64,000 bases of DNA. Source: Thiomonas sp. FB-Cd (GTDB lineage Bacteria; Pseudomonadota; Gammaproteobacteria; Burkholderiales; Burkholderiaceae_C). This document shows positions 9,158-34,657 of this stretch, one piece after another. The stretch spans positions 1,674,001 to 1,738,000 of the forward strand of contig NZ_JPOE01000002.1 of assembly GCF_000733775.1 (NCBI RefSeq), in the 5' to 3' direction. A model generated the notes under the pieces. It was given only the letters and a program-made list of their open reading frames with translations. It was not told the origin of the DNA and made no database searches. Both the position numbers and the translations under genes were made by a program. How positions within the stretch are numbered: position 1 is the stretch's first letter; each line of letters opens with the position of its first letter.

Positions 9158-9158
9158 A

Positions 9159-10013: not shown

Positions 10014-10452
10014 CGAGGAGCTGTAGCCGCGTCGCGTGCAAGCGGTTGACCAGAATCGGCAGGAAGCGGGTCATCATCGCATACCCGAGATCGTGGTCAA
10101 CGTCGCATTTGCAGCGCAGGCAAGACGCATCGATACCGATTGCACGTGTGACCTCGAGCGCCCGCGCGTCGAAGTTCCAACGGTACGGTGATACGAGCCA
10201 TGAGGCGCCCACGATATCCCCGGCCCCAAGGGTTGCAATGACGATGGATGCATGCCCGGGCGAAGCGATCTCAAGCGCGACCCGGCCGTGCCGAATGAGG
10301 AAAAATTCGTCGGCTGACTCGCCTTCCCGGAACAGGTACCGCCCCGCATCGAATCGGTGGTTGCGAGCGCAGCCCGCCACCAAATGGCGATGCGCAGATT
10401 CAAACCCAGCGAAAAATGGATGCTCCGCCAGAATCTGTTCAAGTTCCTGCAT
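9994..10452 (-). CDS. Stand-alone cyclic-nucleotide-binding-domain protein inside the hydrogenase operon
   Basis: This 152-residue protein consists of one Crp-like jelly-roll domain, with no room for a helix-turn-helix. [20 protein letters not shown] and GRVALEIAS fit the fold. In the phosphate cassette ([15 protein letters not shown]) the glutamate that contacts the ribose in CRP is replaced, so cAMP binding is doubtful. A cysteine group, Cys111, Cys114 and Cys116 (CLRCKC), lies near the C-terminus. The start at 10452 overlaps the hydB stop by 14 bp and the 3' end overlaps hydG, so it is tightly coupled to the hydrogenase subunits. A role as a regulatory or redox-sensing subunit is inference. 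Confidence 0.82.
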
Positions 10453-11599
10453 CTGCGGCGCTCCCCGTGCCTTGGACGTCGGCGCGAATCGCCGCAACCT
10501 CCGCAGTGATGTCGATGCCAACCGGACACCACGTGATACACCGGCCGCAGCCGACGCAACCCGAGGTGCCGAACTGATCAATCCAGTTCGCAAGCTTGTG
10601 TGTCATCCACTGTCGGTAGCGCGCAGCCGCTGAATGCCGCACACTGCCACCGTGGATATAGGAAAACTCCATCGTGAAGCACGAGTCCCATTTGCGCACG
10701 CGCCGCGCGGTTTCCCCAGCCAGATCGCCGACCTCATCCACGGATGTGCAAAAGCAGGTTGGACAGACCATCGTGCAGTTACCGCAGCTTAGGCAACGCT
10801 TCCCTAGTGCCTCCCATTGCGAGTGGTTTGGGTTGGCCTGAAGCAAATTCTTGATCCCGTCGGTCTGCAGGTGACGTCCCATGCGGGTTGCCGCGGCCGC
10901 GACAACCTGCCGTGCGGCCTCGACTTCACCGGGCGCTGCCGGGCGCTGCGCCACCTTGGCAAGCAGTGCAGCCCCAGCCGCACTGCCAATTTCCACAACA
11001 AAGACAGCATCGCCCTCAAGCAGCTCTGTCAACGCCAAATCGAAGCCCTGCTGTGCCCTGGGCCCGGTTTGCATCGATGCGCAAAAGCAGGTGCCCCCCG
11101 GCTCTGCGCAGTTGACAGCAACGATGAAGCTCTTCCGCCGCCGCTCTGCATAAGCTTGATCATGGAACGGACCTTGGCAGAAAACACGATCCTGGATGGC
11201 GATCGCCTGCAACTCGCAAGCCCGAACACCGATAAAGGCAAAGGGGGTCGAAGGTTCCGGGGGCGCGGTGAACTCGATGCCGTCGCCTTCCCGATGTGCG
11301 CTCCATAGCGTCTCCAGCGGAGGATGCAGGAATCGCTTCCACGAGTGCGGCCCGACAGCAAAGCTGAAAAACGCGTCATCACCGCGCCGTTCCAAGCGGT
11401 ATGCTCCGGCCTCCTGCCGGTCCGTCCAGCCAGCGGGAAGCTCGCTCAAGCCCGAAATATGGTCGTAGACGATCGCGCCATCGCGCACAGTCGGCCCGAC
11501 GACTTCATAACCCGTCTCGATGAGCATGTCGATAAGCGTTTGCAGGGCGCCACGGGCCATGACAACCGGCGCCTTCGCTGCCGGCAAGGACTCGGCCAT
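10439..11599 (-). CDS. hydB: Group 3b-type hydrogenase iron-sulfur (beta) subunit
   Basis: This is a dicluster ferredoxin-type subunit (386 residues, anaerobic sulfite reductase subunit A family) that passes electrons between the small subunit and the flavoprotein. Two [4Fe-4S] motifs are visible: [11 protein letters not shown] (Cys269, 272, 275, 279) and [11 protein letters not shown] (Cys348, 351, 354, 358). Additional conserved Cys residues lie in GVRACEL and [11 protein letters not shown]. The start at 11599 leaves 2 bp after the uspA stop. It shares an operon with hydG, hydD and hydA. Confidence 0.93.
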
Positions 11600-11601
11600 G
11601 G

Positions 11602-12045
11602 TCAGACCCAATGCCGCACGGTCAACACGTCGCAATGGGCACGATTAGCCACTGCGCTTGCCGTGGATCCGAGCTGGGCAGCCACACCGTGCCAGCCGTG
11701 ACTGCCCAGAACGATAAGATCCGTCCCGTTGGCGCCTGCAAGACGCACGATCTCATGCCAGGCCGAGTGCGGGCTGACCAGTACCGACTGATGCGCCGCT
11801 GCGCAGCCCAGGCTCGACGTGAGTGCGGCCAAGCGGGCGCGCGCCTTGTCTGACTCATATCCAGCGGGATCGACATCCTCGGGTGGAATGCGCTCGTTCG
11901 ATCGCTCCCCAGGGAAATATTCGACGACATGCACGAAGCTCAGATGCTGAGGATTGTGCTCAGCCAGCACCAAGGCGCGCTGGCAGGCCTCGCCGCTGAG
12001 CGATGAAAAATCCACAGCGCAAAGGATGCGTTGATAGACAGGCAT
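11602..12045 (-). CDS. Universal stress protein (UspA family)
   Basis: This is a 147-residue single-domain Usp. It starts MPVYQRILCAVDFS, the common Usp strand-1/Asp motif, and ends with the LIVLGSHGWHG nucleotide-binding loop; the spacing to the next Gly-Ser looks one residue short of the usual GX2GX9GS. The start at 12045 has a strong GAGGGGG upstream. It is the first gene of the group 3b-type hydrogenase operon, only 2 bp before hydB, so it is co-transcribed. Its role there is unknown; stress or hypoxia responsiveness would be a reasonable inference. Confidence 0.88.
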   Translation of the reverse strand: MPVYQRILCAVDFSSLSGEACQRALVLAEHNPQHLSFVHVVEYFPGERSNERIPPEDVDPAGYESDKARARLAALTSSLGCAAAHQSVLVSPHSAWHEIVRLAGANGTDLIVLGSHGWHGVAAQLGSTASAVANRAHCDVLTVRHWV

Positions 12046-19735: not shown

Positions 19736-20328
19736 GAAGACGCCTTCGATCCAGGCGTTGCCTGGGGCCGCCCCCGCTCGTACGGCTGCTTCGCCACGGA
19801 TGCCGGACCCAACGGGTCCCCAGCAGTGCCACAAGGCAAAGCCTCGGCGCGGAGCCCCGCCTGTGCAAGAAACGCAATCCCGGCTGCGATCGCGGCATCA
19901 ATTTGCCCATCAACAGGTCCCGACAGGCTTCCGCCGTAGGACTCGAGGTCCAGCGGTTGCACACCGACCAGACGCATTCGCGTCGGCTGACGCCCCGAGA
20001 GGGCGGCGAGCGCCAGCACGTCCTGAAAATTTGTCTGGTGAAGGCTCATTTTTTTCGCTGTGAGGTAACGCGGCACGTCGGCATCGTCGATCAGGCGTAA
20101 CGAACCAGCGGGAAGGCCATAATCAATCGCGTCGAAAATCAACAAGACATCGGCATCCTCAATCCAGGGCAACAGTCCCAGGCCCAGCGTGCCGCCATCG
20201 ACAAGCTTCACATTGGAGCCGAAACGATAGCGCTCGTGCATCGCTTCAACCACACGCACGCCGAAGCCTTCGTCGGCCCACAGGATGTTGCCAATGCCAA
20301 GGACAAGGACCGATCGCTCGGCGATCAT
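19732..20328 (-). CDS. hupD: Hydrogenase maturation protease HupD
   Basis: This nickel-dependent endopeptidase of 198 residues removes the C-terminal tail of HupL. It has the motif VLVLGIGNILWADEGFGV, with the conserved Glu and Asp that sense Ni, LLIFDAIDYG, and MSLHQTNFQDVLALA with the conserved His. It is longer at the C-terminus than typical HyaD proteins, with an uncharacterised tail of about 35 residues. The start at 20328 overlaps the hupC stop (ATGA). Confidence 0.95.
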   Translation of the reverse strand: MIAERSVLVLGIGNILWADEGFGVRVVEAMHERYRFGSNVKLVDGGTLGLGLLPWIEDADVLLIFDAIDYGLPAGSLRLIDDADVPRYLTAKKMSLHQTNFQDVLALAALSGRQPTRMRLVGVQPLDLESYGGSLSGPVDGQIDAAIAAGIAFLAQAGLRAEALPCGTAGDPLGPASVAKQPYERGRPQATPGSKASS

Positions 20329-21047
20329 GGGCGGCCGTCTTTGAAGTAACGCCAGCCATCGACCATTGTGCTGATCATGGTCTGGCGCGACATGATGTCC
20401 TCGCGAATCGCCATGTAGACGTGGACGATCACGAACATGATCAGGTACCACATGGCGAGATGGTGCCAAGTATGAACGGTCTGACTGCTGCCAAACAGCG
20501 GAATGACCCAACTCGTAAACAGATGATTGGACCAGGACCCATACCCTGTGCCTTCGCCATACAGCGCGAATCCGGTGATGATCTCGAACAGCACACCGAC
20601 CACGAACATGAACAACATCGCAAGCTGCGCTAACGGGTTATGGCCGGTCTCCTTGCCGGTTTCGCGTTCGATCAGGAGATACCAGCGCACCGTTCGAAAA
20701 AAGGCATGCCACCAATCCTTCGTCCAAACCCGCGGCACGAAGATCTCTCGGGCGTAGCGGTTGCCGACGAAAGTCCAATAGATTCGCACCATCATGCCCA
20801 GTGCCAGGACGTATCCGCTCAAAAAATGCGCCAGCCGAATGTCACCCATCAGGTAATGGTTGTAAGGCTGACCGAGAAAGAGCGGCCACGGCGGATTGCC
20901 AATGAGCCAACCGGTGATGGCGAGCACCGTGATCGCTGCAGCGACAAGCCAGTGCCAGATGCGCACCGGCAGTTCATAAACATAGACTGGCGCGGTCACT
21001 TGTGGCGATGCGACGCCGGTCCACGACAATTGCGATTGATCGGGCAT
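20325..21047 (-). CDS. hupC: Ni/Fe-hydrogenase b-type cytochrome HupC
   Basis: This diheme cytochrome b of 240 residues anchors HupSL to the membrane and passes electrons to quinone. Four membrane segments are visible. Haem-ligand candidates are His in YELPVRIWHWLV, the His of the NHYLMGDIRLAHF stretch and the cluster VHTWHHLAMWY with a further VHVYMA. Its place after hupL with a 27-bp gap is standard. Confidence 0.95.
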   Translation of the reverse strand: MPDQSQLSWTGVASPQVTAPVYVYELPVRIWHWLVAAAITVLAITGWLIGNPPWPLFLGQPYNHYLMGDIRLAHFLSGYVLALGMMVRIYWTFVGNRYAREIFVPRVWTKDWWHAFFRTVRWYLLIERETGKETGHNPLAQLAMLFMFVVGVLFEIITGFALYGEGTGYGSWSNHLFTSWVIPLFGSSQTVHTWHHLAMWYLIMFVIVHVYMAIREDIMSRQTMISTMVDGWRYFKDGRP

Positions 21048-21074: not shown

Positions 21075-22871
21075 CTAACGCACCTCGGCGCGAACCAACT
21101 CGCCCCCATCCGGCGCAATGACATGAGTCGAACACGCAAGGCAGGGATCAAAGCTATGCAAGGTGCGAAGAATCTCCAGCGGCTGTGTTGCCTCGGCGAG
21201 CGGCGTGTTGAGTAGCGACGCCTCAAACGCACCAATGTTGCCCGCGGGATCCCGCGGCGAACCGTTCCAGGTCGTCGGCACGACGGCTTGATACGACTCG
21301 ATACGGGTGTTCTTGATGTGCACCCAGTGGCCCAGCGAGCCACGCGGAGCCTCAACGCGGCCGATGCCCTTGGTGTCGGCCGCCCAAGTGGACGGTTCCC
21401 ATTTCTCCGTGGATGCGGTGGCGAGGTCCCCTGCACGCAGGTTATCCATCAAGCGATCATGGAACGTGCGCATCTTGTGCGCCGCCCATGAAGCCTCGAG
21501 GCCGCGCGCAGCGGTGCGGCCCAGCGTTGTGAACAGTGCGTCGACCGGCAAACCCAGATCGCTGAGCAGCTTGTCCACCGGCTCCTTGAATTCGGGTATT
21601 CCCCGCGCGTAGCCCACTGTGAACCGGGAAAGCGGACCGACCTCCATCGCGTGCCCACGCCAGCGTGGCGCCTTGATGAACGAGTACTTGGCGGATTCAT
21701 CGAGCTGTTTGATATCCGTCTTCGTCCCCACCGTGTTGGGTCCAAGCTTGAAGTTCGGGTCGGTGATCCCAGCCCAGGGGTGAAGACCAACCGCCTCGTC
21801 CGGATAGCGATACCAAGAATGATCGACGAACTCCTGCACCTGCTGGGGGTCCCGAAGATCGACGTCCATCACGGCACCAAGCTTGCCACCGACGATGACT
21901 CCACTGGGGATCAGCATGTTGCCTTCCGACCAGTCATTCGCGTGCAGCGGAAATTCACCATAGGACATGACGTTTTGCCCCGCCAGCCCGCGCCCGTAGG
22001 TCCAGTTCTTGTAGAAGGAAGCGATCGCCTTGAGATCAGGCATATAGACCTGGTCGATAAAGTCAATGGTCCGGTCAATGATTGACGAGACGAGGTTGAG
22101 TTGCACCATATTGACCGGTGCGCCTGCCGCGAGCGCCTCATCCAGATTGATGGCACACGCCATGCCCCCGACAAGCCAATTCGGGTGGGGATTCTTGCCA
22201 CCGAACACCGTATGAATCTTGACGATCTCGCGTTGAAAATCGAGCGCTTCCAGATAGTGTGATACCGCCATCAAATTCGCTTCGGGCGGGAGCCGATAGG
22301 CCGGGTTACCCCAGTAGCCGTTCATGAATGGACCAAGTTGCCCGGAATTCACAAATTTCTGCAGCCGGGATTGCACATCCCGGAAATATCCCGGCGATGA
22401 ATTGGGCCACGGCGAAATGCTCTGTGCCAACGCGCTCGTCGCTTTCGGATCCGCCTTCAGCGAGTTGACCACGTCAACCCAGTCCAGCGCATGCAAATGG
22501 TAGAAATGAATCAAATGATCCTGCGCCCATTGCGTCGCAAGCATCAGATTGCGGATGGTGTTTGCATTTTCGGGGATCTTGATCCCGAGCGAGTCTTCCA
22601 CGGCGCGCACCGATGCGAGCGCGTGCACCCCGGTACACACGCCGCAGATACGCTCACAAAATGCCCAGGCATCACGTGGATCACGCCCTTTGAGAATGAC
22701 TTCAAGCCCACGCCACATGGTCCCGGACGACACTGCATTGCGAATGACATTGTTCGCATCGAGGTTGACTTCACAACGCAAATGCCCTTCGATCCGCGTG
22801 ACCGGATCCACAATCAGCCTGCGCCCGCTGTTGTCCAGGTTGAAGCCGTTCGGCGTCGTCACCGTGCTCAT
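21075..22871 (-). CDS. hupL: Uptake [NiFe]-hydrogenase large subunit HupL
   Basis: This is the catalytic subunit (598 residues) of a periplasm-facing membrane-bound H2-uptake hydrogenase. L1 is [17 protein letters not shown] with Cys76 and Cys79. L2 is DPCLACSTH with Cys577 and Cys580. HupD should cut after His583, releasing a 15-residue tail. N-terminal [12 protein letters not shown] is also canonical. There is no signal peptide; the protein is exported with HupS. It has an ATGA overlap with hupS. By overall motifs it resembles group 1d enzymes such as Ralstonia HoxG. Confidence 0.97.
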
Positions 22872-23986
22872 TGCTCGCCTCCGTCACCCATGTCGGACTG
22901 CTCAACCTTATCCTGGCGCTTCTTGCGCACCACCTTGACCACACTGGCCACGGCGTGCGCCGCGACCCCAGCGCCAACGACCGCGGCACCAGCACCACCG
23001 AATGCGTCGGCCGTCGCCTCGATCCCGAGTGCCGTTCCGATGTGGGACAGGCGTTGGTAGAACGGGCCGTTATCCCAGAAGTTTTCTTCGGAGCAGCCGA
23101 TGCAACCATGTCCAGCCTGAATTGGAAAGGAAACGCCCCCGTTCCAACGAATGGTCGAACAGGCGTTGTACGTGGTTGGTCCGCGGCAACCCATTTTGTA
23201 GAGACAATACCCCGAGCGCGCCCCTTCATCGTCCCATGACTCGACGAATTCACCCGCATCAAAGTGAGGTCGCCGGTAGCACTTATCGTGAATCCGTTGA
23301 CCATAGAACATCAGAGGCCTTCCACGATTATCCAGTTCGGGAAGTCGGTCGAATGTGACCATGTAGCTAATGACGCCCGTCATGACCTCGGCGATTGGCG
23401 GACAGCCCGGAACCTTGATGATGGGTTTGTCCGTGATCACTTTATCAATGGGCGTTGCCGCCGTTGGATTGGGCCGCGCGGCCTGCACGCATCCCCAAGA
23501 CGCACATGCGCCCCAGGCAATCACCGCCTTTGCATCGGCTGCGACCGACTTGAGTTTGTCGACGAAAGGCTTTCCACCCACGATGCAATACATGCCATCC
23601 TCGTTAAGCGGAGGATTTCCCTCGACAGCCAGGATGTATTGGCCCTTATATTTTTTGGGTATCTCGTCGAGGATCGCCTCGGCCTGCTCCCCGGCAGCCG
23701 CCATCAAGGTATCGTCGTAGTCGAGCGAGATCATCTTCAAAATGACGTCCTTCGCCAGCGGATGCCCGGACCGAATGAAGGATTCCGAGCAGCATGTGCA
23801 CTCAAGCCCATGCATCCAAAGCACGGGAATGCGCGGCTTGGTTTCCATGGCGTGCGCGATTTTCGACGCGTATATCGGCTCGAGGCCCAGCGCTGCGGCC
23901 GTCAGCGAACAGAACTTGAGAAAGGAACGTCGGCTTGTTCCCTGCGCGCGCATCAGCTCATAAAACGTCTGGTTCTCAGCCACCAT
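22868..23986 (-). CDS. hupS: Uptake [NiFe]-hydrogenase small subunit HupS, oxygen-tolerant type
   Basis: This is the Fe-S subunit (372 residues) carrying the proximal, medial and distal clusters. A twin-arginine signal (RRSFLK, Arg19-Arg20) directs export of the folded dimer. The proximal cluster ligands are Cys63, Cys66, Cys161 and Cys195, plus two supernumerary cysteines, Cys65 (in LECTCCSES) and Cys166 (GACASWGC). This six-Cys set builds the [4Fe-3S] cluster of oxygen-tolerant enzymes. Distal and medial ligands are in [17 protein letters not shown] and GCIGC. A C-terminal hydrophobic helix (about 326-351) anchors it. GAGGAG lies before the start. It is the first gene of the hup operon. Confidence 0.97.
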
Positions 23987-24558
23987 TTCCGTCTCCTCAC
24001 TTCAAGAGCGAACCAGCGCCGGGCTGGTCCTCTTGATCAACCAAGCTGCGCCTTCGCTTTCCCCATTAAGTTCAATCTAGGCAACTTTCAACGTGAATGC
24101 GATCCCGGATCCAGGCGCCTGATTGACCTTCATCAAGAATCCTTGCTTTAAATCTGTTCGAAGATGAAACATGAGCTCGGCGACACTGCGAAGCAGGCTT
24201 GCGCTGGCCATAAGCTTGCCTCGTCGGGTTGTAGCCATGCTGACTTCCGCATGCAGTCGGCCGCTGGCCGGTGATGGAGTCTGCCTCGCCATCAATGGAC
24301 CTGCGCTGCATGAACCGGAAGCCACCTGCGCGTGACTGCGTCTCTTCGTACCGTCGATCCATATCTCTGCCATGCGTTTCTGAAGCGTTGGCGCCAGGGA
24401 ACATGTTCACCTGCAAAATTGTCGCAATGCCCGCGCGCTGGATAATTCACAACAGGCGTTGCCATGCGCGAACATCAGGCGCCCGTGTGCCGCCAATGTT
24501 GATGATTGCGGCACCCCCTTGCGCCCACCTTTTCTTCTATAACGCCCGAGCCCCGCGC
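23987..24558. other. Upstream region of the hup operon
   Basis: About 570 bp between divergent hupS and the START-domain gene. No gene is supportable; a minus-strand frame ending near 24077 has a tail vaguely like a histidine kinase end but no kinase motifs. An FNR-like box lies at 24123-24136. Confidence 0.5.
24123..24136 (-). promoter_or_regulatory. FNR/ANR-like box upstream of hupS
   Basis: TTGAC-CTTC-ATCAA differs from the FNR consensus TTGAT-N4-ATCAA at one position. Its centre is about 143 bp upstream of the hupS start. A TAGATT hexamer (minus strand, 24079-24074) could be a -10 element that would place the box near -62, a class I activator position. The -35 is weak. Oxygen control of hup transcription is inferred. 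Confidence 0.5.
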
Positions 24559-25065
24559 ATGACTTCCTGCCGCGTCCAACGTGATCTCGCCGTTCCGAAC
24601 GACGCCTTGTTTGCACTGGTCGCCGACGTCGAGGCCTATCCCCGATACATGCCTGGATGGAAGGCCGTTCGGGTTCTCGCGCGAGCGGGTTCGTCCTGCC
24701 GGGTCGAGCAGACCATCAATCTCGTCGGCGCCGAAATCACGTTCGAGTCCATCGCAGAATGGGATCCGCCCCACCGTCTGGATATTCGGGCAACTGACAG
24801 CCCATCACAGCCCTTTCGCAAATTCCACTTGTGCTGGACCTTCACCCCGACTGGCCCACAACAAACGCTGCTTCAAGTCGAACTCGAATGTGAATTCCGT
24901 TCCGCGCTCCTGACCCATGTGGCACGCCGTATGAGTTGGATCTTGCTCAATCGCGCCATTGACGCCTTCGAGCGCAAGGCAACGCTGCTTATGGATAAGC
25001 CAGGCATTGACAGTCATGGCGGGTCCGCTGCGAGCACACTCTCCAATCACGATCCAAGCAGATAG
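24559..25065 (+). CDS. COQ10/RatA-like START-domain lipid-binding protein
   Basis: This 168-residue protein of the polyketide cyclase/START superfamily resembles ubiquinone-binding COQ10 and bacterial RatA. The features are ALFALVADVEAYPRYMPGW near the N-terminus, INLVGAEITFES in the strands and the C-terminal helix RMSWILLNRAIDAFERKA lining a lipid pocket. The start at 24559 (MTSCRVQRD) is where homology begins; the upstream frame is non-homologous. It is monocistronic and its end overlaps the prenyltransferase fusion gene by 19 bp tail-to-tail. It is not in the usual ratA context near smpB, so quinone binding rather than a toxin role is plausible but unproven. Confidence 0.8.
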   Translation: MTSCRVQRDLAVPNDALFALVADVEAYPRYMPGWKAVRVLARAGSSCRVEQTINLVGAEITFESIAEWDPPHRLDIRATDSPSQPFRKFHLCWTFTPTGPQQTLLQVELECEFRSALLTHVARRMSWILLNRAIDAFERKATLLMDKPGIDSHGGSAASTLSNHDPSR

Positions 25066-26609
25066 GCGAGCGCGAGGAGCGCGCCGGTTGACAAGTGAAG
25101 CAACACGGACATTGCGTTAACCTGCAACAGGTCAAATGGAAGGCGCTTGCGATCCTCGTTGGGGTCGCGCCAACGCTCCACCCAGCGACGGCCGAGGCGG
25201 TCGGCCCTGAAAAAGAGCGGGAACGGCAGAAGCGCGAGCCACGCATACGGGGTCGCCAAGCCTGGAGTGACCACACCAAGCACACCGAGCGCCACGATCA
25301 GCGTGAAGCCCACCAAGTTGAACAGGCGATAAATGCCGAATACGCGGTCATAGGTGAACGCCATGTCGCGATCTTGAGCGATGCGCACGACCCAGTTGCG
25401 TTTTCCGCTGATGGCATCGGCGGGCGCATCCTGAAACTGGTTGATCCAAAGCACGAGCAAGATGAACACGCTGACGGGCAGTGACGCAACAACACTGGCA
25501 AACACGGGCCATGGCGTCGCGCCACCTGCCGTCAAGACATAACTTGTCCCCAGGACGATGACGGGTCCAAAACCGACAGCCACCGCGACCTCACCAAATC
25601 CGCGGTAGCTCAGCGGAAATGGCCCCACCGTGTAGGCAACGCCCAGGGCACAGCCCAGAGCCCCGATCATCAGCAAAGGCGTCGGGGCAAACGCCGACCC
25701 GGCGATGAGCGCGTTGATGTGCAGCCCGATCCAAATCGTTGCCCCGAAACAGGCAATGCTGGCTGCCAGCACTTTCCACGGCGCCAGAAGCCCAAGCTGG
25801 ATCATCCGACTTCCACCAGTGAACGCATTGGCGCCCACCTGATTCTGATCGTCCGCCCCGCTGGTGTGATCTCCGTAGTCATTGATCAGATTGGTGCCAG
25901 CCGCAGCCAGCACCGCCCCGACCAATGCCCACACAAAAATGGCCCACGACCACTCCTGGCCTTCACCCGCACGCCGCATGGCATAGCTGGCAATGGCGCC
26001 CCCCAACAGCACAGGGACCAGGGCCGCGGTAAAAAACGGCGCACGAACGGCATGCACCCAAAGTCGCATCCAGCGACTCAGCGCCCGCAGCGCCTGCAAG
26101 GGGTGGCTGGGCTCGTTTTGTGGAAAGTCGCGCCACGCAAAACGCGGGATGGCCAAGGTGTCGACCAGTGCCGTGCGCGTCGGAGACAGCCGAAAGCAGC
26201 CAAACTCGCTGGGCACCTTGCCCGTGACATCATGGATCGCCTGTTGCGGCACATGAACCCCAGCTTGCAACAGGGCGACTGCGCGAATGCGACCTGCCTG
26301 ATCCAGAATCTCGCTGCAGTGCCCGCTGATTTCCACTCCGAGCTCACTGCCTTGTTCGCAGGGCCAGATCACAGCCTGCACCGACGAATTGGTCGCCACT
26401 TGGGCCGCGATTCGAGACGCCTTGCAACACACGAAGATCAAATCTTGGCCGTCGAGCACGAATTGAAGCGGAGCAGCCGAGCTGTTTCCGTCGACCGAGG
26501 TCGCAAGCACCATGCGGTTCGCGCCCGCCAGGACGTGCTCGAGCAGTGGCTGGTCGGCGGCCGCCAGTGTCAAATCGCCACCGAATTTCATCACGTCGGA
26601 TTGGTCCAT
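25047..26609 (-). CDS. Fusion of an FMN-type split-barrel domain with a UbiA/MenA-like prenyltransferase
   Basis: A 520-residue two-domain protein. Residues about 15-165 look like a pyridoxamine-phosphate-oxidase-type split barrel (MVLATSVDGNSSAAPLQFVL, LIFVCCKASRIAAQVATN, AVIWPC). Residues about 185-520 are an eight- to nine-helix UbiA-superfamily prenyltransferase with the Asp-rich motif NLINDYGDHTSGADD (240-254) and a second motif in QFQDAPADAISGKRN; these bind Mg-prenyl diphosphate. It resembles MenA most. MenA is normally about 300 residues without the N-terminal domain. The start at 26609 has GGAGAG upstream. It is the last gene of the psr-type operon. A role in making or modifying a quinone is inferred. 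Confidence 0.85.
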   Translation of the reverse strand: MDQSDVMKFGGDLTLAAADQPLLEHVLAGANRMVLATSVDGNSSAAPLQFVLDGQDLIFVCCKASRIAAQVATNSSVQAVIWPCEQGSELGVEISGHCSEILDQAGRIRAVALLQAGVHVPQQAIHDVTGKVPSEFGCFRLSPTRTALVDTLAIPRFAWRDFPQNEPSHPLQALRALSRWMRLWVHAVRAPFFTAALVPVLLGGAIASYAMRRAGEGQEWSWAIFVWALVGAVLAAAGTNLINDYGDHTSGADDQNQVGANAFTGGSRMIQLGLLAPWKVLAASIACFGATIWIGLHINALIAGSAFAPTPLLMIGALGCALGVAYTVGPFPLSYRGFGEVAVAVGFGPVIVLGTSYVLTAGGATPWPVFASVVASLPVSVFILLVLWINQFQDAPADAISGKRNWVVRIAQDRDMAFTYDRVFGIYRLFNLVGFTLIVALGVLGVVTPGLATPYAWLALLPFPLFFRADRLGRRWVERWRDPNEDRKRLPFDLLQVNAMSVLLHLSTGALLALAYLLGS

Positions 26610-26673: not shown

Positions 26674-27333
26674 TCAGTTGCAGATCCCTTTCAGGTTGAT
26701 TCGCACGGGAACCTTCGGCATTGGTGCAACGGCCGCACCCGCGGCGGACGCAGCCTCTTGAGGCGACCCGATTTCGAGCATTGGAATCGGCGCAACACCG
26801 GCCTGTGGGCATGTGTTCAAGGCACGCACAATCTGAAATGTTTCGCGTTGAGAGGCCCACGCGTCAATCTTTTTGGCCCATGCACTCAGGCCCCCAGCCA
26901 GTCCGAGCGCCGGCACGCCCGCCACTCGCAGCAGTGTGGTGGCCTGCGCCTGCCTGTCGGTTGTTTCCGCATAGACAATCACCTGCGGCACGCGCCGCAG
27001 GCGCACAATTTCCGCCGGATCAAATAGCTTGGGCAACGGAATGTTCTGAGCACCTTGAATGTGGGCCTCAGCGAAGGCCCTGGCCGAGCGGATGTCGATC
27101 AACGTGAAATCCCCTCGATGCGCCAACATCAAGTTGCGCAAATGCTCGGGCGTGATCGCATCATCACCGCGCGCCACCGCTTGCGCCAGCGATTGAAGCG
27201 TGGCGTCCCGTGGCATCGCCGCCCAGACCACGTCAACGGGAGACAGTGCAGCGACGGCAGGAACGAGCAGCGGTATTGCACGCAGCGCAGCGGCCAGGCT
27301 TGGCCGTCGGATGCCGGAATTTCGCTTGGGCAT
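26674..27333 (-). CDS. Exported rhodanese-like protein lacking the catalytic cysteine
   Basis: This 219-residue protein has an N-terminal signal or anchor (hydrophobic residues about 11-39 ending VWAAMP) and one rhodanese domain (FTLIDIRSARAFAEAHIQGA, IVYAETTDRQ, LAGGLSAW). The usual active-site Cys after the IVY strand is Ala122, so it cannot form a persulfide there. Two other cysteines, Cys175 and Cys218 near the extreme C-terminus (KGICN), remain. The start at 27333 is supported by GAGGAA. It lies between the NrfD-like subunit and the prenyltransferase fusion, so it may bind or hand over sulfane sulfur or polysulfide to the complex in the periplasm. Confidence 0.82.
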   Translation of the reverse strand: MPKRNSGIRRPSLAAALRAIPLLVPAVAALSPVDVVWAAMPRDATLQSLAQAVARGDDAITPEHLRNLMLAHRGDFTLIDIRSARAFAEAHIQGAQNIPLPKLFDPAEIVRLRRVPQVIVYAETTDRQAQATTLLRVAGVPALGLAGGLSAWAKKIDAWASQRETFQIVRALNTCPQAGVAPIPMLEIGSPQEAASAAGAAVAPMPKVPVRINLKGICN

Positions 27334-27343
27334 GGTTTGTTCC

Positions 27344-28384
27344 TCAGAAACGACCATTAGGGTTTTCGCCGTCCTTGCGCAGGTCCTTCAGCAGGGACGC
27401 ATTGAACTGGTTGTCGAAATGGCTCCAACTGGTCTCTTGACCCGTTTTCACGACCACGTCACGTAACAAAAATCCACCAAACAAGACCAACACCGCCGCA
27501 ACGGCTGCAACGCTGACCATGGAGCGTCTCCATAAGACAAGCTCCAGCGCAAGCGGCAAAGCGAGCCCGGCGCCGATGAATCCGAGCCAGAACACCTGGG
27601 TGGCGCCACCACCGAGCACGTGTGCCGCAGCGTCGCGCTGCAGCGCGTTGCCGTTGAGCATATCAGCGAGAAACAAGCCTATCAGCGCGAGTTCCACCAA
27701 GATAAGACCCAGATCGATCCGTCCGAACAAATGCCTCTCACCGTCGGCTCCTGTGCCCAAGATCATCATCGCCGCGCCGGTTGACAGCCCGGAAGTGAGA
27801 AAGAGCGGGCCGAGAAGCGCCGAATGCCAGAATGGTCTCGCGTTGAATGCCGACAGCAAAACCCCGGTGTAAATGCCAAGGGCAATGCCCAAAGCGAAAT
27901 TCAGGACGGCCAGCTTGCGGCGCTGCATGACGCAGATTGCACTGATCGGTGCGATCAGGCGCGGACCGATTGCCGGCAGCCGGTCCAACCATGCCGAAAG
28001 TGCCGGAAACCCGCTGGGCAAGCCAGCCAGCGTCAGCAGCCCCAGTGCAGGGATGACCAACAGCAGCACCCAAGACCCCCATGACATCACCGAGGTCACG
28101 TGAAGTCCCGTATAGAAGCGCCAAACGTTGATCTTTTGCTCGAGATCGAGGAAAAGGGTCGTCATCCCGACCATCAATGCCACGAATCCGATCAGTGGCG
28201 CTTGGCCCGCGGCGAACGGCGCCTGGGCCTCGCGCCGCGCAAGCACCGCCCAAGCCGACAACACCATGAGCCCTGCGGCCAGGCCACCGAGAAAAAGATA
28301 GGTCGCAATTTGCCAGCCCCAGATCGCAAGCTGAGGCTCGACTTTTGCGTTGGCCAACACGCTGGCCAGAACTTCCTCGCGCAT
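27344..28384 (-). CDS. psrC: NrfD/PsrC-family membrane subunit
   Basis: This 346-residue integral membrane protein has about eight to ten helices and belongs to the polysulfide reductase NrfD family. It exchanges electrons with the quinone pool. The family features include an N-terminal helix with GWQIATYLFLGGLAAGL, DLEQKINVWRFYTG and WGSWVLLL. The start at 28384 has GGAGAGGAG upstream. It follows the ferredoxin-like subunit by 65 bp. The Psr naming is by family; substrate is not proven. Confidence 0.88.
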   Translation of the reverse strand: MREEVLASVLANAKVEPQLAIWGWQIATYLFLGGLAAGLMVLSAWAVLARREAQAPFAAGQAPLIGFVALMVGMTTLFLDLEQKINVWRFYTGLHVTSVMSWGSWVLLLVIPALGLLTLAGLPSGFPALSAWLDRLPAIGPRLIAPISAICVMQRRKLAVLNFALGIALGIYTGVLLSAFNARPFWHSALLGPLFLTSGLSTGAAMMILGTGADGERHLFGRIDLGLILVELALIGLFLADMLNGNALQRDAAAHVLGGGATQVFWLGFIGAGLALPLALELVLWRRSMVSVAAVAAVLVLFGGFLLRDVVVKTGQETSWSHFDNQFNASLLKDLRKDGENPNGRF

Positions 28385-28449
28385 GATCGTTGACTCCTCT
28401 CCCTGCGTCTTTTCGGTATTCGCAATTGGTGTCGAGCGCCTCCTGGCCC

Positions 28450-28992
28450 TCAACGCAGGTAAAACACGTTTGGCTCGTTGCCGCTCTCGGGATGCAGTGT
28501 GTAGTGTTTGCGGCTGGCGAGCAGTTGGCTGACCTCACTGGTCGGCTCGTCAACCAGCCCGAAATGCATCGCGCGCGTCGGACACACGGCTACACACGCG
28601 GGATCGTCGCCGACTTGGACTCGATGAACGCAGAACGTGCATTTGCCGATATAGCCCTGCGGCTGCATGATCAAACGCGCGTCGTAAGGGCAGGCGGCGA
28701 TGCAGGCCTTGCAGCCAGTGCAGCGCGTGGCATCCACGACCACGATATTGGTACCGTTCCAATATTGGCTCGCGCCAGTGGGGCAGACTTCGACGCAGGT
28801 TGCATGCGAGCAATGGTTGCACCGCTCGGAACGAAATTCAGTCGCCAAATCCGGATAGATCCCGGTGGTGACCTCAACCACCCAGTCGTAGCACAGCCCT
28901 TCGGGGACATCATTTTCCATGCGGCATGCATCAACGCATGCCGTGCAGCCCACGCAGGTCTTTGTGTCGATCACCATGGCATACCGCGTCAT
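28450..28992 (-). CDS. psrB: Four-cluster ferredoxin-type subunit (PsrB/PhsB type)
   Basis: This 180-residue electron-transfer subunit has four Cys groups for four [4Fe-4S] clusters: Cys13/16/19/23 (CVGCTACVDAC), Cys58/61/66/70, Cys91/94/97/101 (CTGCKACIAAC) and Cys118/121/133/137. It links the molybdopterin subunit to the NrfD-like membrane subunit. The start at 28992 forms an ATGA overlap with psrA. A long upstream frame continues antisense-free into psrA and is not used. Confidence 0.93.
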   Translation of the reverse strand: MTRYAMVIDTKTCVGCTACVDACRMENDVPEGLCYDWVVEVTTGIYPDLATEFRSERCNHCSHATCVEVCPTGASQYWNGTNIVVVDATRCTGCKACIAACPYDARLIMQPQGYIGKCTFCVHRVQVGDDPACVAVCPTRAMHFGLVDEPTSEVSQLLASRKHYTLHPESGNEPNVFYLR

Positions 28993-31187
28993 GACACCAC
29001 CTCCTTGCGGAATGTGACGAAATTTCCCCGCATCCCTGTGCCACCCATGATCGGATCGATCAGGACTCGGGTCATGAGCGCCGAATCGTCCGCTCCACGA
29101 CCAAACGCCAATTTGAGGCCGCTTGCAGTGTGGCCAAATCCATGGACGAGCCAAACCGAATCCGGCCGCGTGCGCTCGGTGACCCGCACCCGCACAGGGT
29201 TGCTGACAACGCCGTCCTGATTGACCAGCCGGACGTAGGTGGCATTGTCGATACCAAAGCGGCGCGCAGCCTGCGGGTGGATCCAGACCAGGTTTTCGGG
29301 CATCAGCTGAAAGAGGACCGGATTGTTCTGGGTCCTGCTGAAGCTGTGTTGCGGCGCACGGCCATAGTTCAGATGGAAATAGCCGTCGGACGGGGGCCGA
29401 GGCGGCGTGTAATGCGGCAGCGGCTCGAATCCCGAATCTCTCAGCAGAGTCGAATACAGCTCGATCTTTTCGCTGGGCGTTTTCCAAGGAATGTTTGCGC
29501 CCGCATCCCAATACAGCGGCGTGCGACGCGGGAACTTCTTGAGACCGATCTTCTGCATCTCGGCGAGAGAACTGCCGACCTGCTTCAACTGCCAGTCCAC
29601 CACTTCACTGTAGTCTTGCCACGGGAAATAACGCTCAAGCCCAAGCCTCTTGCCGAGCTCTTTCGCAATCCACCAGCCAGGCTTCGAATCGCCCCGAGGT
29701 GGCAGTGCCGGCGCGCGCAGGGCCACGCAAGGCTCACGTTCAGGCGAATTTCGCAACGGGTCGTAGCGCTCAAGATAGGAGCATTCGGGCAGCACCACGT
29801 CCGCATACCCCGTCATCTCTGACGGCTGCACATCAATGGCCACAATCAACTCAAGCGACTGGGATGCGGTGGCGAGCTTCTCCCGCACCCCCGGCATCGT
29901 CATCGGCAAATTGGTGTCGTAGACGATCAGCGCCTTGTAGTGGGCATCCTTGCCGAGGGCGTTATCGATAATGACATTCGTGACCGCTGCTCCCGCGAGC
30001 GGATACTTTTTCAGGGTGATGTCCCGCCACGACGCCTTCGGCGCGGGGTAAGCGGGAAGCGGGTAGCTTGGGAGCTCGACCGCCTCCGGTAGGTAATACC
30101 CGCCGCGTGCTCCCCAGATGCCTAGCAGTCCAGCCAGAATCGCCATCGCACGGGCGCGTTGCGTATCGTCACCCCACCAGGTCGAATGACGCCCAGGGTG
30201 AATGACGGTGGCGGGCGCCGCAGCGGCCATGATGCGCGCTGTACGGCGGATGAGCTCGGCGTCGACCCCGGTCTCGGGATAAGCCCACTCGGGTGTGAAC
30301 GGCGCGACGTGCTGCGCCAGCGCGTCGAAACCCAATGTGTTGCGCACAACATAATCGCGGCTATAAAGCTGCTCGGCCAAGATGACATTGATCCAAGCCA
30401 GCAGCAGGGCAATATCTGTACCCGGCCGGATCGGCAGCCAATGCTGGGATTTTCCGGCCGCCACCGAGAAACGCGGATCGACGGTAATAATGGTTGCATC
30501 GTTGCGTATGGCGTCCCCGAACGTCTGCACCTGACTGTTATGAAGGTTTTCGCCGATATGCGATCCAACCAGCACAATGCACCGCGCATTCTCCATGTCG
30601 GTCTGTTCGGGTGACTCCAACCCTTCGCCGAACGTCAGGAAAAATCCGGTGTCACGTGGCCCGCGGCACTGCGCAAATGCAGGCTGCGCGATGCTGTCGC
30701 TTCCGAAAGCGCGTACAAGGTGGTCAAAGTGTCCGGCGCCCGGGCCGTGGACAAGCGCCGCGACGCGATCGGCGCCGTGCTCGCGCGCGACTTTACTCAG
30801 TTTTTCGCTGATGAAGCCAAGCGCCACGTCCCAGCTGACCGGCTCGAAGCTCTGCTTCCCATTGCGCTGCACCCGCAACAGCGGCTTGACCAGCCGATTT
30901 GGATCGTAGTACGCGCCAACGCCGCCGGTTCCGCGCGTGCATAGCCGTCCGTTCGAATGCGGATCACCCGGCTGGCCCGTGATTTTCCAAAGCTCACCGT
31001 CTCGCGTATGCACACTTGCGGCACAACCCCAAAAGCAGATATTGCAGACCGTCGGGCTTTGCTTTGCAGGTGCTTGTGTCATCATCTTCTGCCATTCGGC
31101 AGGCTGGCTGCACCCTTCCAGCGTAGACCCCAGCAGCGCGACAGACCCCACTGCCGCGCTGACCTTCAAGAAGTCACGGCGCTGCAT
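28989..31187 (-). CDS. psrA: Molybdopterin oxidoreductase, polysulfide/thiosulfate reductase type
   Basis: This catalytic subunit (732 residues) of the DMSO reductase superfamily is exported by a twin-arginine signal (QRRDFLKVS). LEGCSQ near residue 26 looks like a lipobox. The N-terminal [4Fe-4S] ligands are Cys48, Cys51, Cys55 and Cys83 (CNICFWGC, LCTRG). Cys174 in FAQCRGPRDT is a good candidate Mo ligand, typical of sulfur-reducing members. The start at 31187 matches the signal peptide. With psrB and psrC it forms an ABC complex on the periplasmic side. Polysulfide, thiosulfate or tetrathionate are all possible; the hydrogenase and rhodanese neighbours favour sulfur or polysulfide. Confidence 0.88.
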   Translation of the reverse strand: MQRRDFLKVSAAVGSVALLGSTLEGCSQPAEWQKMMTQAPAKQSPTVCNICFWGCAASVHTRDGELWKITGQPGDPHSNGRLCTRGTGGVGAYYDPNRLVKPLLRVQRNGKQSFEPVSWDVALGFISEKLSKVAREHGADRVAALVHGPGAGHFDHLVRAFGSDSIAQPAFAQCRGPRDTGFFLTFGEGLESPEQTDMENARCIVLVGSHIGENLHNSQVQTFGDAIRNDATIITVDPRFSVAAGKSQHWLPIRPGTDIALLLAWINVILAEQLYSRDYVVRNTLGFDALAQHVAPFTPEWAYPETGVDAELIRRTARIMAAAAPATVIHPGRHSTWWGDDTQRARAMAILAGLLGIWGARGGYYLPEAVELPSYPLPAYPAPKASWRDITLKKYPLAGAAVTNVIIDNALGKDAHYKALIVYDTNLPMTMPGVREKLATASQSLELIVAIDVQPSEMTGYADVVLPECSYLERYDPLRNSPEREPCVALRAPALPPRGDSKPGWWIAKELGKRLGLERYFPWQDYSEVVDWQLKQVGSSLAEMQKIGLKKFPRRTPLYWDAGANIPWKTPSEKIELYSTLLRDSGFEPLPHYTPPRPPSDGYFHLNYGRAPQHSFSRTQNNPVLFQLMPENLVWIHPQAARRFGIDNATYVRLVNQDGVVSNPVRVRVTERTRPDSVWLVHGFGHTASGLKLAFGRGADDSALMTRVLIDPIMGGTGMRGNFVTFRKEVVS

Positions 31188-31613
31188 GTTCAATCCCCTA
31201 AGCCGCCACACCGCAAGGCGCCCAATGGTGACACCGCGGGATCGGCACCTCTTGCCGCAAATGCGCATCGGACCATGGGGTCACAAAACGTTGCATCCAT
31301 CGACTCACCTCCATTGTGAAGGCCCGCCTCGAAAGGCACGACCATCGTCGATACGGTGAAACCTTGCAAGCGCGTTGGCGTAATCGGGGCGAGTCAAGCG
31401 CCAGCTGAGGACCCAGCAACACACTATTTTCAGGCTAGTCGGAAATGTGCGCCTCGAACTTGATCCACGTCAAGACCGGGAGGTACGTCACCCCAGGCAT
31501 TCCCAGCCCCCTACCCTGCAATCTGCACGCAGCGCAGACCGCTCGGGACTATAGTTATCGCACAAGCTGGCGGAGTCCCGCGGACTGTAATTGCGCGCAA
31601 TGGAGAAAACGAA
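31188..31613. other. Divergent regulatory region between psrA and the radical SAM gene
   Basis: About 425 bp without a supportable gene. It contains an FNR-like box at 31460-31473 and a TATAGT string at 31550-31555 on the plus strand that could be a -10 for the radical SAM gene. Confidence 0.55.
31460..31473. promoter_or_regulatory. FNR/ANR-like box between psrA and the radical SAM gene
   Basis: TTGAT-CCAC-GTCAA matches the FNR/ANR consensus TTGAT-N4-ATCAA with one change. It is centred about 280 bp before psrA and 147 bp before the radical SAM start, so it could control either or both. Anaerobic activation is the expected effect. Confidence 0.6.
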
Positions 31614-33350
31614 TTGAAAAACGTGGACTTGCTGCTTCTCCATGCGCCGAGCGTGTATGACTTTCGCAAACATGCGATCCTTTATGGACCCGTGAGCGAC
31701 CTGATTCCGTCGTCAACGGTATTCGAGATGTATCCCCTCGGTTTCCTGACGATCGCGAGCTATCTTCGGCGGCAGGGAATGGAAGTGCGCATCGTCAATC
31801 TGGCGCTGCGCATGATCAATAGCCGCCGCTTCAGCGTTCCGCGCTTCCTTGCCAAAATTGCCAAGCCCGCGGCCATCGGGATCGATCTCCATTGGCTGCC
31901 ACATTGCCATGGCGCGCTGGAGGTGGCGCGCATCGCAAAGGAAATTCTGCCCGACACGCCAATCATCATGGGCGGCCTGTCGTCAAGTTACTTTCATGAG
32001 GAGCTGATCACCTATCCGCAGGTCGACTATGTCTTGCGGGGCGACAGCACCGAGCCGCCCCTGCACCAGTTGCTGCTTGCCTTGCGCGACGGAAGCGATC
32101 TCACCACCATTCCAAACCTTACGTGGAAAAAGGCCGGGGCAGTCCAGGTCAACCCGTATACCTTCATCCCGGCCACTCTCGATTACGCCGACTTGCGGCC
32201 GGACCTGATGGTCGAGATGGTTCTTCGCTATCGTGACTTGCAGAGCGTCACACCGTTCAACGGCTGGACCAAGAACCCCATCACCACCGTGTTCACGGTC
32301 AAGGGCTGTGCACACGACTGTGTCACGTGCGGCAGCTCGCACACAACCTGCACGCACCTGACGATGCGCGACAAACCCGTGTTCCGCAGCCCGGCAAGCC
32401 TGGTCGAGAACATGCAGGCCATCAGCCGTCTGACACGCGCTCCGATTTTCCTGGTCGGCGATCTGCTCCAAGCCGGCCCAATGCATGCCGCGGAAGTTCT
32501 CGAGCAGCTTCGGCTGGCCCGCATCAACAACGAAATCGTCTTCGAGTTTTTCACCGTGCCGCCGACCTCGGTGCTGCAAGCCATTGCTCGATCGACCAAA
32601 AACTGGAGCATGGAGTTCAGTCCTGAAAGCCATGACCGCGCGGTTCGCAATGCGCAAGGCGGAGGCGAAGGCGAATATGACAATACTGCGATGGAGTCGT
32701 TCTTTCAGGAGGCGCTAAGGCAGGGCTGCCACCGCATTGACGTATTTTTCATGATTGGCTTGCCGCAACAGACCGTACGCTCGGTCCATGAGACCATCGA
32801 TTACTGCGAACATCTCTTTGCCCTGGGTGACGCACGGCTGTCCTGCTTCATTTCACCCATGGGACCTTTCCTCGATCCGGGTAGCCGTGGCTTCGAAGAA
32901 CCGGAACGCCTCGGGTACCGCCTCTTCGCACGCACACTCGAAGAGCACCGGCAGCTGCTGATACAGCCAACCTGGGAGCGGATCCTCAATTACGAAACCC
33001 GGTGGATGAGTCGTACCGAGCTGGTCGACGTCACCTACGCGGCGGCTGAGCGTCTCAACGATCTAAAGGTTCGGCATGGCCGGATTTCACCGCGTCGCGG
33101 CCGAAAGGTGGCCAGCCAAATCAAGGAAGCGCGCGCCTTGCGCGCCAGACTGGACGCCGAGCTGGCCACCGGAAAGGCCTCTTCGGCCTACCAGAGTCTG
33201 GCGGGCGAGATATCACGATTCAGCATGGACACGGTTTGCGACAAGCGCGAACTGTTCTGGCCACGGCACGCCGTCAATTTCAAGGCCAAAGAGATTGTGC
33301 GCATTATTAAACGGTATCTTTCAGGCCAGATCGAGTCGCCCAACGCGTAG
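31614..33350 (+). CDS. B12-binding/radical SAM protein (Ta0216-like)
   Basis: This 578-residue protein has an N-terminal cobalamin-binding-type Rossmann domain (about 1-160, with IIMGGLSSSYFHEEL and VLRGDSTEPPLHQLL) and a radical SAM core with Cys232, Cys236 and Cys239 (CAHDCVTC, the Cx3Cx2C pattern). A C-terminal extension follows from about 450. The start is TTG at 31614 with GGAGA 7 bases upstream; no in-frame ATG upstream gives a better choice. It resembles the B12-binding/radical SAM family typified by Thermoplasma Ta0216, whose substrate is unknown. It is divergent from psrA and shares its FNR-like box. Confidence 0.83.
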   Translation: MKNVDLLLLHAPSVYDFRKHAILYGPVSDLIPSSTVFEMYPLGFLTIASYLRRQGMEVRIVNLALRMINSRRFSVPRFLAKIAKPAAIGIDLHWLPHCHGALEVARIAKEILPDTPIIMGGLSSSYFHEELITYPQVDYVLRGDSTEPPLHQLLLALRDGSDLTTIPNLTWKKAGAVQVNPYTFIPATLDYADLRPDLMVEMVLRYRDLQSVTPFNGWTKNPITTVFTVKGCAHDCVTCGSSHTTCTHLTMRDKPVFRSPASLVENMQAISRLTRAPIFLVGDLLQAGPMHAAEVLEQLRLARINNEIVFEFFTVPPTSVLQAIARSTKNWSMEFSPESHDRAVRNAQGGGEGEYDNTAMESFFQEALRQGCHRIDVFFMIGLPQQTVRSVHETIDYCEHLFALGDARLSCFISPMGPFLDPGSRGFEEPERLGYRLFARTLEEHRQLLIQPTWERILNYETRWMSRTELVDVTYAAAERLNDLKVRHGRISPRRGRKVASQIKEARALRARLDAELATGKASSAYQSLAGEISRFSMDTVCDKRELFWPRHAVNFKAKEIVRIIKRYLSGQIESPNA

Positions 33351-33673: not shown

Positions 33674-34657
33674 CTAATCTGGCAAGCCGACAGTCGGATT
33701 TCCGAGATTCGTCCATTCGATCATGGATCCCGCATAGAGCTTCGAGTTTGGATTACCGACGATTTCGCTCATCACGAACCACGCACCGGAGGCAAAAAGC
33801 GCCGTATTGCAGTAGCTAATGGTCGGCACGTCCGGCCTGATATGGAATTGGGCCAAGATCATCTTGTAATCTCTTGCGCTCATAAATTCGTAGGCCGCGC
33901 CAATCGGCCTGACAATCGCGTCGGTCGGGAAGGACACGGCGCCCGCCAAGTGCCCTGGTGTTTTATCCACTGGACTCCTGACGACACCCAGGAACTGATC
34001 CACGGGACGGGCGTCGACGAACTGATACGAGCCTTCCCGCAACCCCACTTTGACCTGTTCCAAAGAGGCAAGGATTTTTTGGTCGGCGGGGCCGGCGGTC
34101 CAGTTTCCGGTTGCTGCGGCAATCTTGTCAACACTTACCGGATAGCCGTCTTGCAACCACGCGTTGAGGCCACCATTTAAAATGGCAATTTTGTCGCGGG
34201 GCTCACCGAAAAAGCGCAGCTGGAAATAAAGCCGGGTGGCCATATCCACGGACGAGACGCTGTCGCCGACCGAAACAATGACAATAGGCTTGTCGGACTT
34301 GTTCAGACCCGAATCATCCATAATCTTTGTAAAGCGCTGCGCGGTGGGCATTTGTGCCTGAATCTTCACCCCGTCGACGATCCGGTCAACCCGGATCTTG
34401 TTGAAATCGACAGCAATCGCATTGGCAATATGCCCGCCGGTCTGCAGCAAACTCTTTTTCCCACTGGCCGCGACACCCCCGAATTGTGGTTCTTGGGTCA
34501 AATTCTTCATGTCGTCGCGGATATCGACAACCGTAACCTCGTTGAGATGCCGGCTCAGCCATTGCGGAGTGACGAGCGCACCCGGCAGGCCAGAGGCCGA
34601 AGCGGCTTGAGCCACCACCCCAAGAACGCAAATTGCGAACAACAATTTCCCCTTCAT
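33674..34657 (-). CDS. Periplasmic two-domain rhodanese (thiosulfate/3-mercaptopyruvate sulfurtransferase type)
   Basis: This 327-residue protein has a Sec signal peptide (residues 1-21, ending SASA-type). It carries two rhodanese domains: one at about 30-175 (VVDIRDDM, NGGLNAWLQDGYPV) and one at about 200-327 (FVDARPVDQFLG, GHLAGAVSFP). The catalytic Cys283 is in ISYCNTALFAS, so it should form a persulfide. The loop after Cys (NTALFAS) differs from the usual CRxGxR of thiosulfate or CGSGVTA of mercaptopyruvate enzymes, so the donor is uncertain. It probably serves sulfane-sulfur handling near the psr module. Confidence 0.86.
   Translation of the reverse strand: MKGKLLFAICVLGVVAQAASASGLPGALVTPQWLSRHLNEVTVVDIRDDMKNLTQEPQFGGVAASGKKSLLQTGGHIANAIAVDFNKIRVDRIVDGVKIQAQMPTAQRFTKIMDDSGLNKSDKPIVIVSVGDSVSSVDMATRLYFQLRFFGEPRDKIAILNGGLNAWLQDGYPVSVDKIAAATGNWTAGPADQKILASLEQVKVGLREGSYQFVDARPVDQFLGVVRSPVDKTPGHLAGAVSFPTDAIVRPIGAAYEFMSARDYKMILAQFHIRPDVPTISYCNTALFASGAWFVMSEIVGNPNSKLYAGSMIEWTNLGNPTVGLPD

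Follow-up and report, generated by a model that had tools for sequence, protein, structure and literature searches.

The window, a 64,000-nucleotide stretch of the Thiomonas sp. FB-Cd genome, encodes on its minus strand (25047–26609) a 520-amino acid protein that joins a degenerate split barrel to a MenA/UBIAD1-like prenyltransferase and that follows the genes for a PsrABC-type enzyme. We propose, with a probability of about 0.5, that this fusion is a dedicated prenyltransferase making a low-potential quinone for a HupSLC-to-PsrABC chain, the quinone ring more likely being scavenged. The gene arrangement is real, conserved and, as far as literature searches go, undescribed, as the original prediction had supposed: no paper describing a split-barrel/prenyltransferase fusion was found among the titles listed. 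One family member is already labelled as MenA plus a NimA-like flavoprotein in a JGI record (P0071).

The fusion is a single open frame of 520 codons. GGAGAG precedes its ATG at 26609, and the upstream rhodanese gene stops 64 bases before that ATG. Pfam placed PF01040 at residues 216–480 (70.8 bits, above the cut-off) and, marginally, PF01243 at residues 24–105 (28.9 bits, cut-off 28.1). When the AlphaFold model (predicted local distance difference test score, 89.5) was compared with known folds, residues 14–164 (26118–26570) resembled split-barrel structures and residues 177–520 (25050–26081) resembled UBIAD1 and archaeal UbiA structures. A 38-member family profile searched against structures ranked UBIAD1 first (1.5e-6), followed by stress protein 26, HutZ and pyridoxine phosphate (PNP) oxidases. 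Single-sequence PDB searches with the homolog P0001 and with one N-terminal domain gave no matches at the thresholds used, and the window N-terminal domain alone gave one weak match (E 0.67). UBIAD1 (8djk), which we take to be the vertebrate menaquinone-4 synthase, is the closest solved chain by both profile and fold, but it shares only 18% identity with the fusion and has no fused barrel. MenA models gave the best NCBIfam matches, and the fusion carries MenA-type motifs. In motif 1 the third Asp stands two residues later than in NDxxDxxxD, a spacing that we assume to be that of E. coli MenA (NDYxD...D). Both Asp-rich motifs, correctly described as intact in the original prediction, and a conserved Tyr are invariant in all 124 fusion rows of our alignment; roles for such motifs in the UbiA superfamily are given in the accessible text of PMC4106721.

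A search at E 1e-3 found 296 homologs among 8,000 candidates scored. Among the 120 matches listed, 106 (the query's own record counted) are 470–560 amino acids long, and the sources include Acidocella, Acidiphilium, Gammaproteobacteria, Calditrichota, KSB1 and Neomarinimicrobiota. Genome loci widen the family to Actinomarina, Chlorobiota and Bacteroidetes. Homologs of fusion length across several phyla rule out a frameshift artefact, which had been named as a possible refutation, and the two domains do occur in one frame as first described. The alignment and tree combined the 106 homologs with four single-domain outgroup rows, leaving out 10 shorter or longer matches, and 18 fusion rows and two outgroup rows were added from 49 genome loci; near-identical or identical rows (P0033/L008 and P0100/L022) were kept. 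In this quick tree, which carried warnings on composition and long branches, the fusions grouped together, apart from the six single-domain outgroup rows, with a support of 100. The window protein falls among 28 proteins on one side of a branch with a support of 99, referred to here as the window clade. Standalone-length relatives of the barrel were scarce, with 35 of 39 candidates passing and 26 of those 35 located on contigs shorter than 3 kb. This scarcity and the grouping of the fusions in the tree indicate that the fusion is old and no local accident.

The window clade is tied to a specific locus. A complete PsrABC-type set lies in one minus-strand operon, consisting of a PsrA/PhsA-type molybdopterin subunit (28989–31268), a PsrB-type 4Fe-4S subunit (frame 28450–29511) and an NrfD/PsrC-type membrane subunit (27344–28453; PF03916, 145 bits). 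The PsrB-type subunit probably has its true start close to 28990, because family matches begin near residue 174 of the frame. The PsrA-type subunit has a twin-arginine translocation-like signal (22.6 bits, cut-off 22.7) and scored 435 bits against the PhsA model, under the cut-off of 694, so that its substrate may be polysulfide or thiosulfate. The window genes were compared by tblastn with 15 loci, a stretch of genome G557 and a contig of genome G423. The order psrA-psrB-nrfD-rhod1-fusion was found in all nine clade loci (the window, L005–L009, L013, G557 and G423), where rhod1 encodes a rhodanese-domain protein (26674–27357, minus strand) between nrfD and the fusion. A COQ10/RatA-like START-domain gene (24271–25065, plus strand) converges on the fusion and overlaps its 3′ end; its product matches PF03364 (77.2 bits against 23.4) and misses the RatA equivalog (37.7 against 258). 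This facing gene, pointed out in the original prediction, is conserved in 8/9 clade loci, the region not being visible in G423. The minus-strand NiFe hydrogenase genes encode HupS (22868–23986; TIGR00391, 552 bits), HupL (21075–22871; family matches) and the b-type cytochrome HupC (20325–21047; TIGR02125, 223.6 bits, cut-off 121.5). Genes hupS and hupL follow in six of the nine clade loci; none is within 10 kb in L008, and L009 and G423 end first. A two-domain rhodanese, rhod2 (33674–34657, minus strand), has a relative (29%–50% identity) near psrA in all eight other clade loci. In the DNA around 43 non-clade loci, 37 with a fusion and six with a single-domain relative, no match was found to psrA, psrB, nrfD, rhod1, the COQ10-like gene, hupS or hupL (0/43). 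The co-occurrence with psr and hup genes that the original prediction had named as a check therefore holds inside the clade, for psr more completely than for hup, and fails in related loci outside it.

HupC and NrfD face the quinone in known systems. A dedicated quinone chain fits the conserved COQ10-like gene, HupC and NrfD, and the fusion would be a membrane prenyltransferase serving this one respiratory chain. It would put a polyprenyl tail on a naphthoquinol-like ring to yield a low-potential quinone, which would be reduced by electrons from H2 via HupSL-HupC. The NrfD subunit of the PsrABC-type enzyme would then oxidise the quinone, with reduction of polysulfide supplied by the rhodaneses, and the COQ10-like START protein may bind or deliver the quinone.

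Markers of the known ring pathways were searched for in up to 23 genomes of the locus set, seven clade genomes among them, and in 14 control genomes. The window genome is 100% complete, and of the 14 controls, MenD was over the cut-off in seven, MqnC in two, MqnA/D in four, MenB in seven, HPPD in one, NuoH in 11 and RquA in none. Outside the controls, neither MenD (0/21 genomes) nor MenB (0/23) passed in any genome; this includes the seven clade genomes tested, which sets these seven apart from the usual MenA context. MqnC was over the cut-off in one of 21 genomes (G008) and MqnA/D matched in three of 21 (G006 to G008); neither gave a match even at E 1e-3 in any of the seven clade genomes. NuoH was found in 23/23 genomes. 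HPPD matched in seven of 23 genomes and was over the cut-off in three (G002, G003 and G012), two of them clade genomes; a homogentisate route was rejected for the window genome, which has no HPPD match. Rhodoquinone was likewise rejected, with RquA over the cut-off in 0/12 genomes, though also in 0/14 controls. Two near misses for MenB, in G000 (293 bits) and G004 (297 bits), proved to be BadI (526 and 541 against 467.6). The BadI gene of the window genome (L090:9729–10511; 294 bits against MenB), with a similar sequence in L092, might be mistaken for a gene of menaquinone synthesis.

The locus linkage and the missing markers (no Men, futalosine or RquA marker at threshold in the clade) strengthen the central idea of the original prediction, a special quinone, and make it more plausible; the identity of that quinone we only infer. 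Since no known ring pathway was found, uptake from neighbours of a DHNA-type (1,4-dihydroxy-2-naphthoate) compound, as in Streptococcus agalactiae, would be more likely than an unrecognised synthesis. The S. agalactiae MenA is presumably a single-domain protein. According to the accessible text of PMC6030563, its gene belongs to a cydAB-ndh operon, and the bacterium lacks the remaining men genes and converts DHNA into demethylmenaquinone. The two cases share a solitary quinone prenyltransferase gene that forms part of a respiratory operon while the rest of the men set is missing from the genome, but the streptococcal chain is an aerobic cytochrome bd chain and its substrate is known.

Besides the fusion, the PF01040-type proteins of the window genome comprise one ubiquinone UbiA and two CtaB. 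The ordinary UbiA implies that 4-hydroxybenzoate chemistry is present, and yeast Coq10p binds ubiquinone according to the title and abstract of one paper, so the fusion might be imagined as an extra prenyltransferase for 4-hydroxybenzoate or a ubiquinone intermediate during anaerobic growth. We consider this quite improbable, because a true UbiA is already in the genome, MenA models score better, and the fusion gave no UbiA_proteo match at E 0.01.

Several points weigh against a dedicated low-potential quinone. The H2-to-sulfur chain might in principle run on ubiquinone. The fusion differs from MenA in its N-terminal split barrel and in falling under every curated MenA cut-off (125.4 against 264 and 88.3 against 102.15, NCBIfam). 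The clade loci share descent or transfer, so that a gene order kept in 9/9 does not amount to nine independent events, and L006/L007 and L009/L013 are close pairs. The Men and futalosine markers were tested in seven clade genomes, with G557 and G423 left out, and the control counts mark the thresholds as strict, especially for RquA and MqnC. Apart from that of the window, the genomes are mostly metagenome-assembled or single-cell, with completeness unstated, which makes a single absence weak; the joint pattern of absences is stronger than any one of them.

The N-terminal domain has the fold of PNP oxidase (PNPOx), general stress protein 26 and HugZ, and the original prediction had it sensing or reducing the ring through a flavin. 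In the profile alignment, the family stretch vfftfnptrkaeqirlnp aligns to vfyTnlgsRKahqienNP of E. coli PNPOx, whose T83, R88, K89 and Q111 we take to be the residues that bind flavin mononucleotide (FMN), the position of the Gln being likewise assumed. Non-clade fusion rows keep these residues almost throughout (T 96/96, R 96/96, K 95/96 and Q 79/96), whereas the window clade retains only the Arg (T 0/28, R 27/28, K 0/28 and Q 0/28, with E in 25), and the window fusion has C61, R66, I67 and E93. The predicted barrel fold is kept while the Thr, Lys and Gln of the FMN site are replaced, in contrast to PNPOx-type barrels, from which the family's barrel also differs in having only the 35 standalone-length relatives. 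For pairs with C-terminal identity of 0.55–0.65, mean N-terminal identity was 0.41 in the clade (200 pairs) and 0.63 elsewhere (2,108 pairs), at mean C-terminal identities of 0.62 and 0.59, respectively. Judged from sequence, the flavin site was lost in the psr-linked lineage and its barrel is changing fast. A flavin role is consequently unlikely in the window protein, contrary to what had been proposed. The barrel might instead be active with another ligand, such as heme or another nucleotide, and still sense or reduce the ring, but we give this little credence given the loss of the Thr and Lys from every clade row and the fast divergence of the domain. F420 was rejected as a cofactor of the window protein, as the window genome has no MqnC/CofH-like match at E 1e-3. 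For the proposed quinone prenyltransferase, the ancestral barrel was probably FMN reductase-like and may have kept the ring reduced; in the window clade it would be at most structural.

Outside the clade, the fusion also occurs in Actinomarina-type genomes. There, 33 loci were assigned by title, tree position or shared gene order, and in 32 of them the fusion is followed by a gene of one cluster (for example L016:9977–12121). Where typed, in L016, this cluster is UbiE/MenG-like (PF01209, 86.6 bits). An Anaerolineae locus (L046) has a single-domain prenyltransferase followed by a member of the same cluster. PF01040 matched two proteins in each of six Actinomarina-type genomes, the fusion and one other, the latter being the heme O synthase CtaB in 3/3 typed genomes, so the fusion appears to be the only quinone-type prenyltransferase seen there. 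Complex I NuoH was present in 12/12 of these genomes. MenD (0/6) and MenB (0/12) were never over the cut-off, MqnA/D (six genomes) and HPPD (12 genomes) gave no match, and no ubiquinone-UbiA marker was found at threshold. MqnC-like matches in 6/6 genomes (286–312 bits, below the cut-off) were rejected as CofH beside CofG where typed, which was in one genome of the six (L054). That CofH (L054:6427–8298) has 623 amino acids, adjoins CofG and carries an extra N-terminal region of about 250 amino acids with no Pfam match.

These genomes provide the main argument for de novo synthesis of the ring through a pathway not yet recognised, in which case the fusion would mark either a new quinone or one more bacterial route to quinones. 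Complex I without known ring genes, a PF01040 set limited to the fusion and one other protein, and the UbiE-like neighbour all speak for it, and it would be unusual for a free-living marine bacterium to depend entirely on quinone that it scavenges. We nevertheless regard it as unlikely. No candidate ring genes were found, the Actinomarina-type genomes are incomplete, salvage would also account for these observations, and the UbiE-like protein of L016 scores 120.9 in NCBIfam, short of its subfamily cut-off of 158.35. In addition, G008 has the fusion together with MqnC over the cut-off and two MqnA/D matches. This record is titled Caldisericaceae, yet its fusion groups with Calditrichota proteins; the gene (L012:10001–11539, L056) adjoins an AlaDh/PNT-type gene, and both MqnC and an MqnA/D-type gene are 6–8 kb away. 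Since members of the UbiA superfamily also act in the synthesis of archaeal lipids, heme O and chlorophyll, an acceptor without a quinone ring, such as another lipid or a heme, could be envisaged. It is very improbable, as the nearest families are MenA and UBIAD1, and two separate lineages have a neighbouring gene that points to quinones, UbiE-like in one and COQ10-like in the other. A quinone prenyltransferase, probably supplied with a scavenged ring, is the reading that we prefer.

The locus seems to have crossed bacterial classes, because it is present in the betaproteobacterial host of the window and also, by record titles, in Acetobacteraceae (L005) and Acidiphilium (L013). The RNase PH encoded in the window shares 83% identity with its counterpart in Thiomonas sp. 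X19 and 98% with one in an unplaced proteobacterial metagenome-assembled genome, which makes a Thiomonas-like host probable. In the family of G009 (299 genomes), four were found to carry the fusion and five the same type of PsrA, the fifth being G423, whose fusion is cut by a contig end; G557 and G423 were new, and the other three were already in the locus set. A Fisher test on the uncorrected 4-of-5 table gave 1.5e-8 and is descriptive only. Two distant PsrA relatives (32%–34% identity) in that family occur without the fusion. In the G423 contig (L087:1–3380), the psrA match is fragmented with one internal stop. In the order to which the window belongs, 300 genomes were searched, and none but the window genome has the fusion. 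Transferred PsrABC and NiFe hydrogenase have been reported in Acidiphilium clade IV, an acidophile with both kinds of enzyme, and the accessible part of that account (PMC7677001) mentions no prenyltransferase fusion or special quinone.

Other features of the window lie beside this module. A B12-binding radical SAM gene (31614–33350; TIGR04190, 610.7 bits against 500) is divergent from psrA; it was rejected as a member of the module, as no match was found in the 15 loci, in G557 or in the 43 non-clade loci. Between 24800 and 31700, terminator-like sites were at chance level (8, with 7.3 expected) and no promoter-like site was found. A PHROGs search gave no match. A second NiFe hydrogenase set occupies 6620–11635. 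Its large subunit is closest to sulfhydrogenase ShyA, although its score of 299 does not reach the cut-off of 700, and the set also includes an NAD-binding/DHODB-type subunit, an Fer4_22 subunit and a maturation protease.

It is a doubtful but wider possibility that the family as a whole represents an unrecognised quinone system, with a ring made outside the Men, futalosine and ubiquinone routes, which would provide the sole pool quinone of the marine Actinomarina and would have been captured by acid-mine proteobacteria to serve as their private carrier of low potential between H2 and sulfur, with its flavin domain dropped afterwards. The Actinomarina-type genomes, which belong to a widespread marine group, do present a gap, with complex I, one quinone-type prenyltransferase and no known ring pathway found. 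A survey of 26,264 genomes has described some without either menaquinone pathway and suspected an alternative route in Gloeobacter-type cyanobacteria (PMC13386864); the words "fusion", "pyridoxamine" and "Actinomarin" are absent from its main text. For the window host, the matter is one of redox potential. The potential of sulfur lies far below that of menaquinone. Menaquinone itself is near −80 mV and high-potential quinones are near +100 mV, according to the accessible text of PMC11707229. For Proteobacteria whose only quinone is ubiquinone, sulfur reduction should therefore be difficult. If our proposal is true, a quinone prenyltransferase that can move with its operon would offer a simple way around this difficulty, and a particular lipid is to be expected in particular strains.
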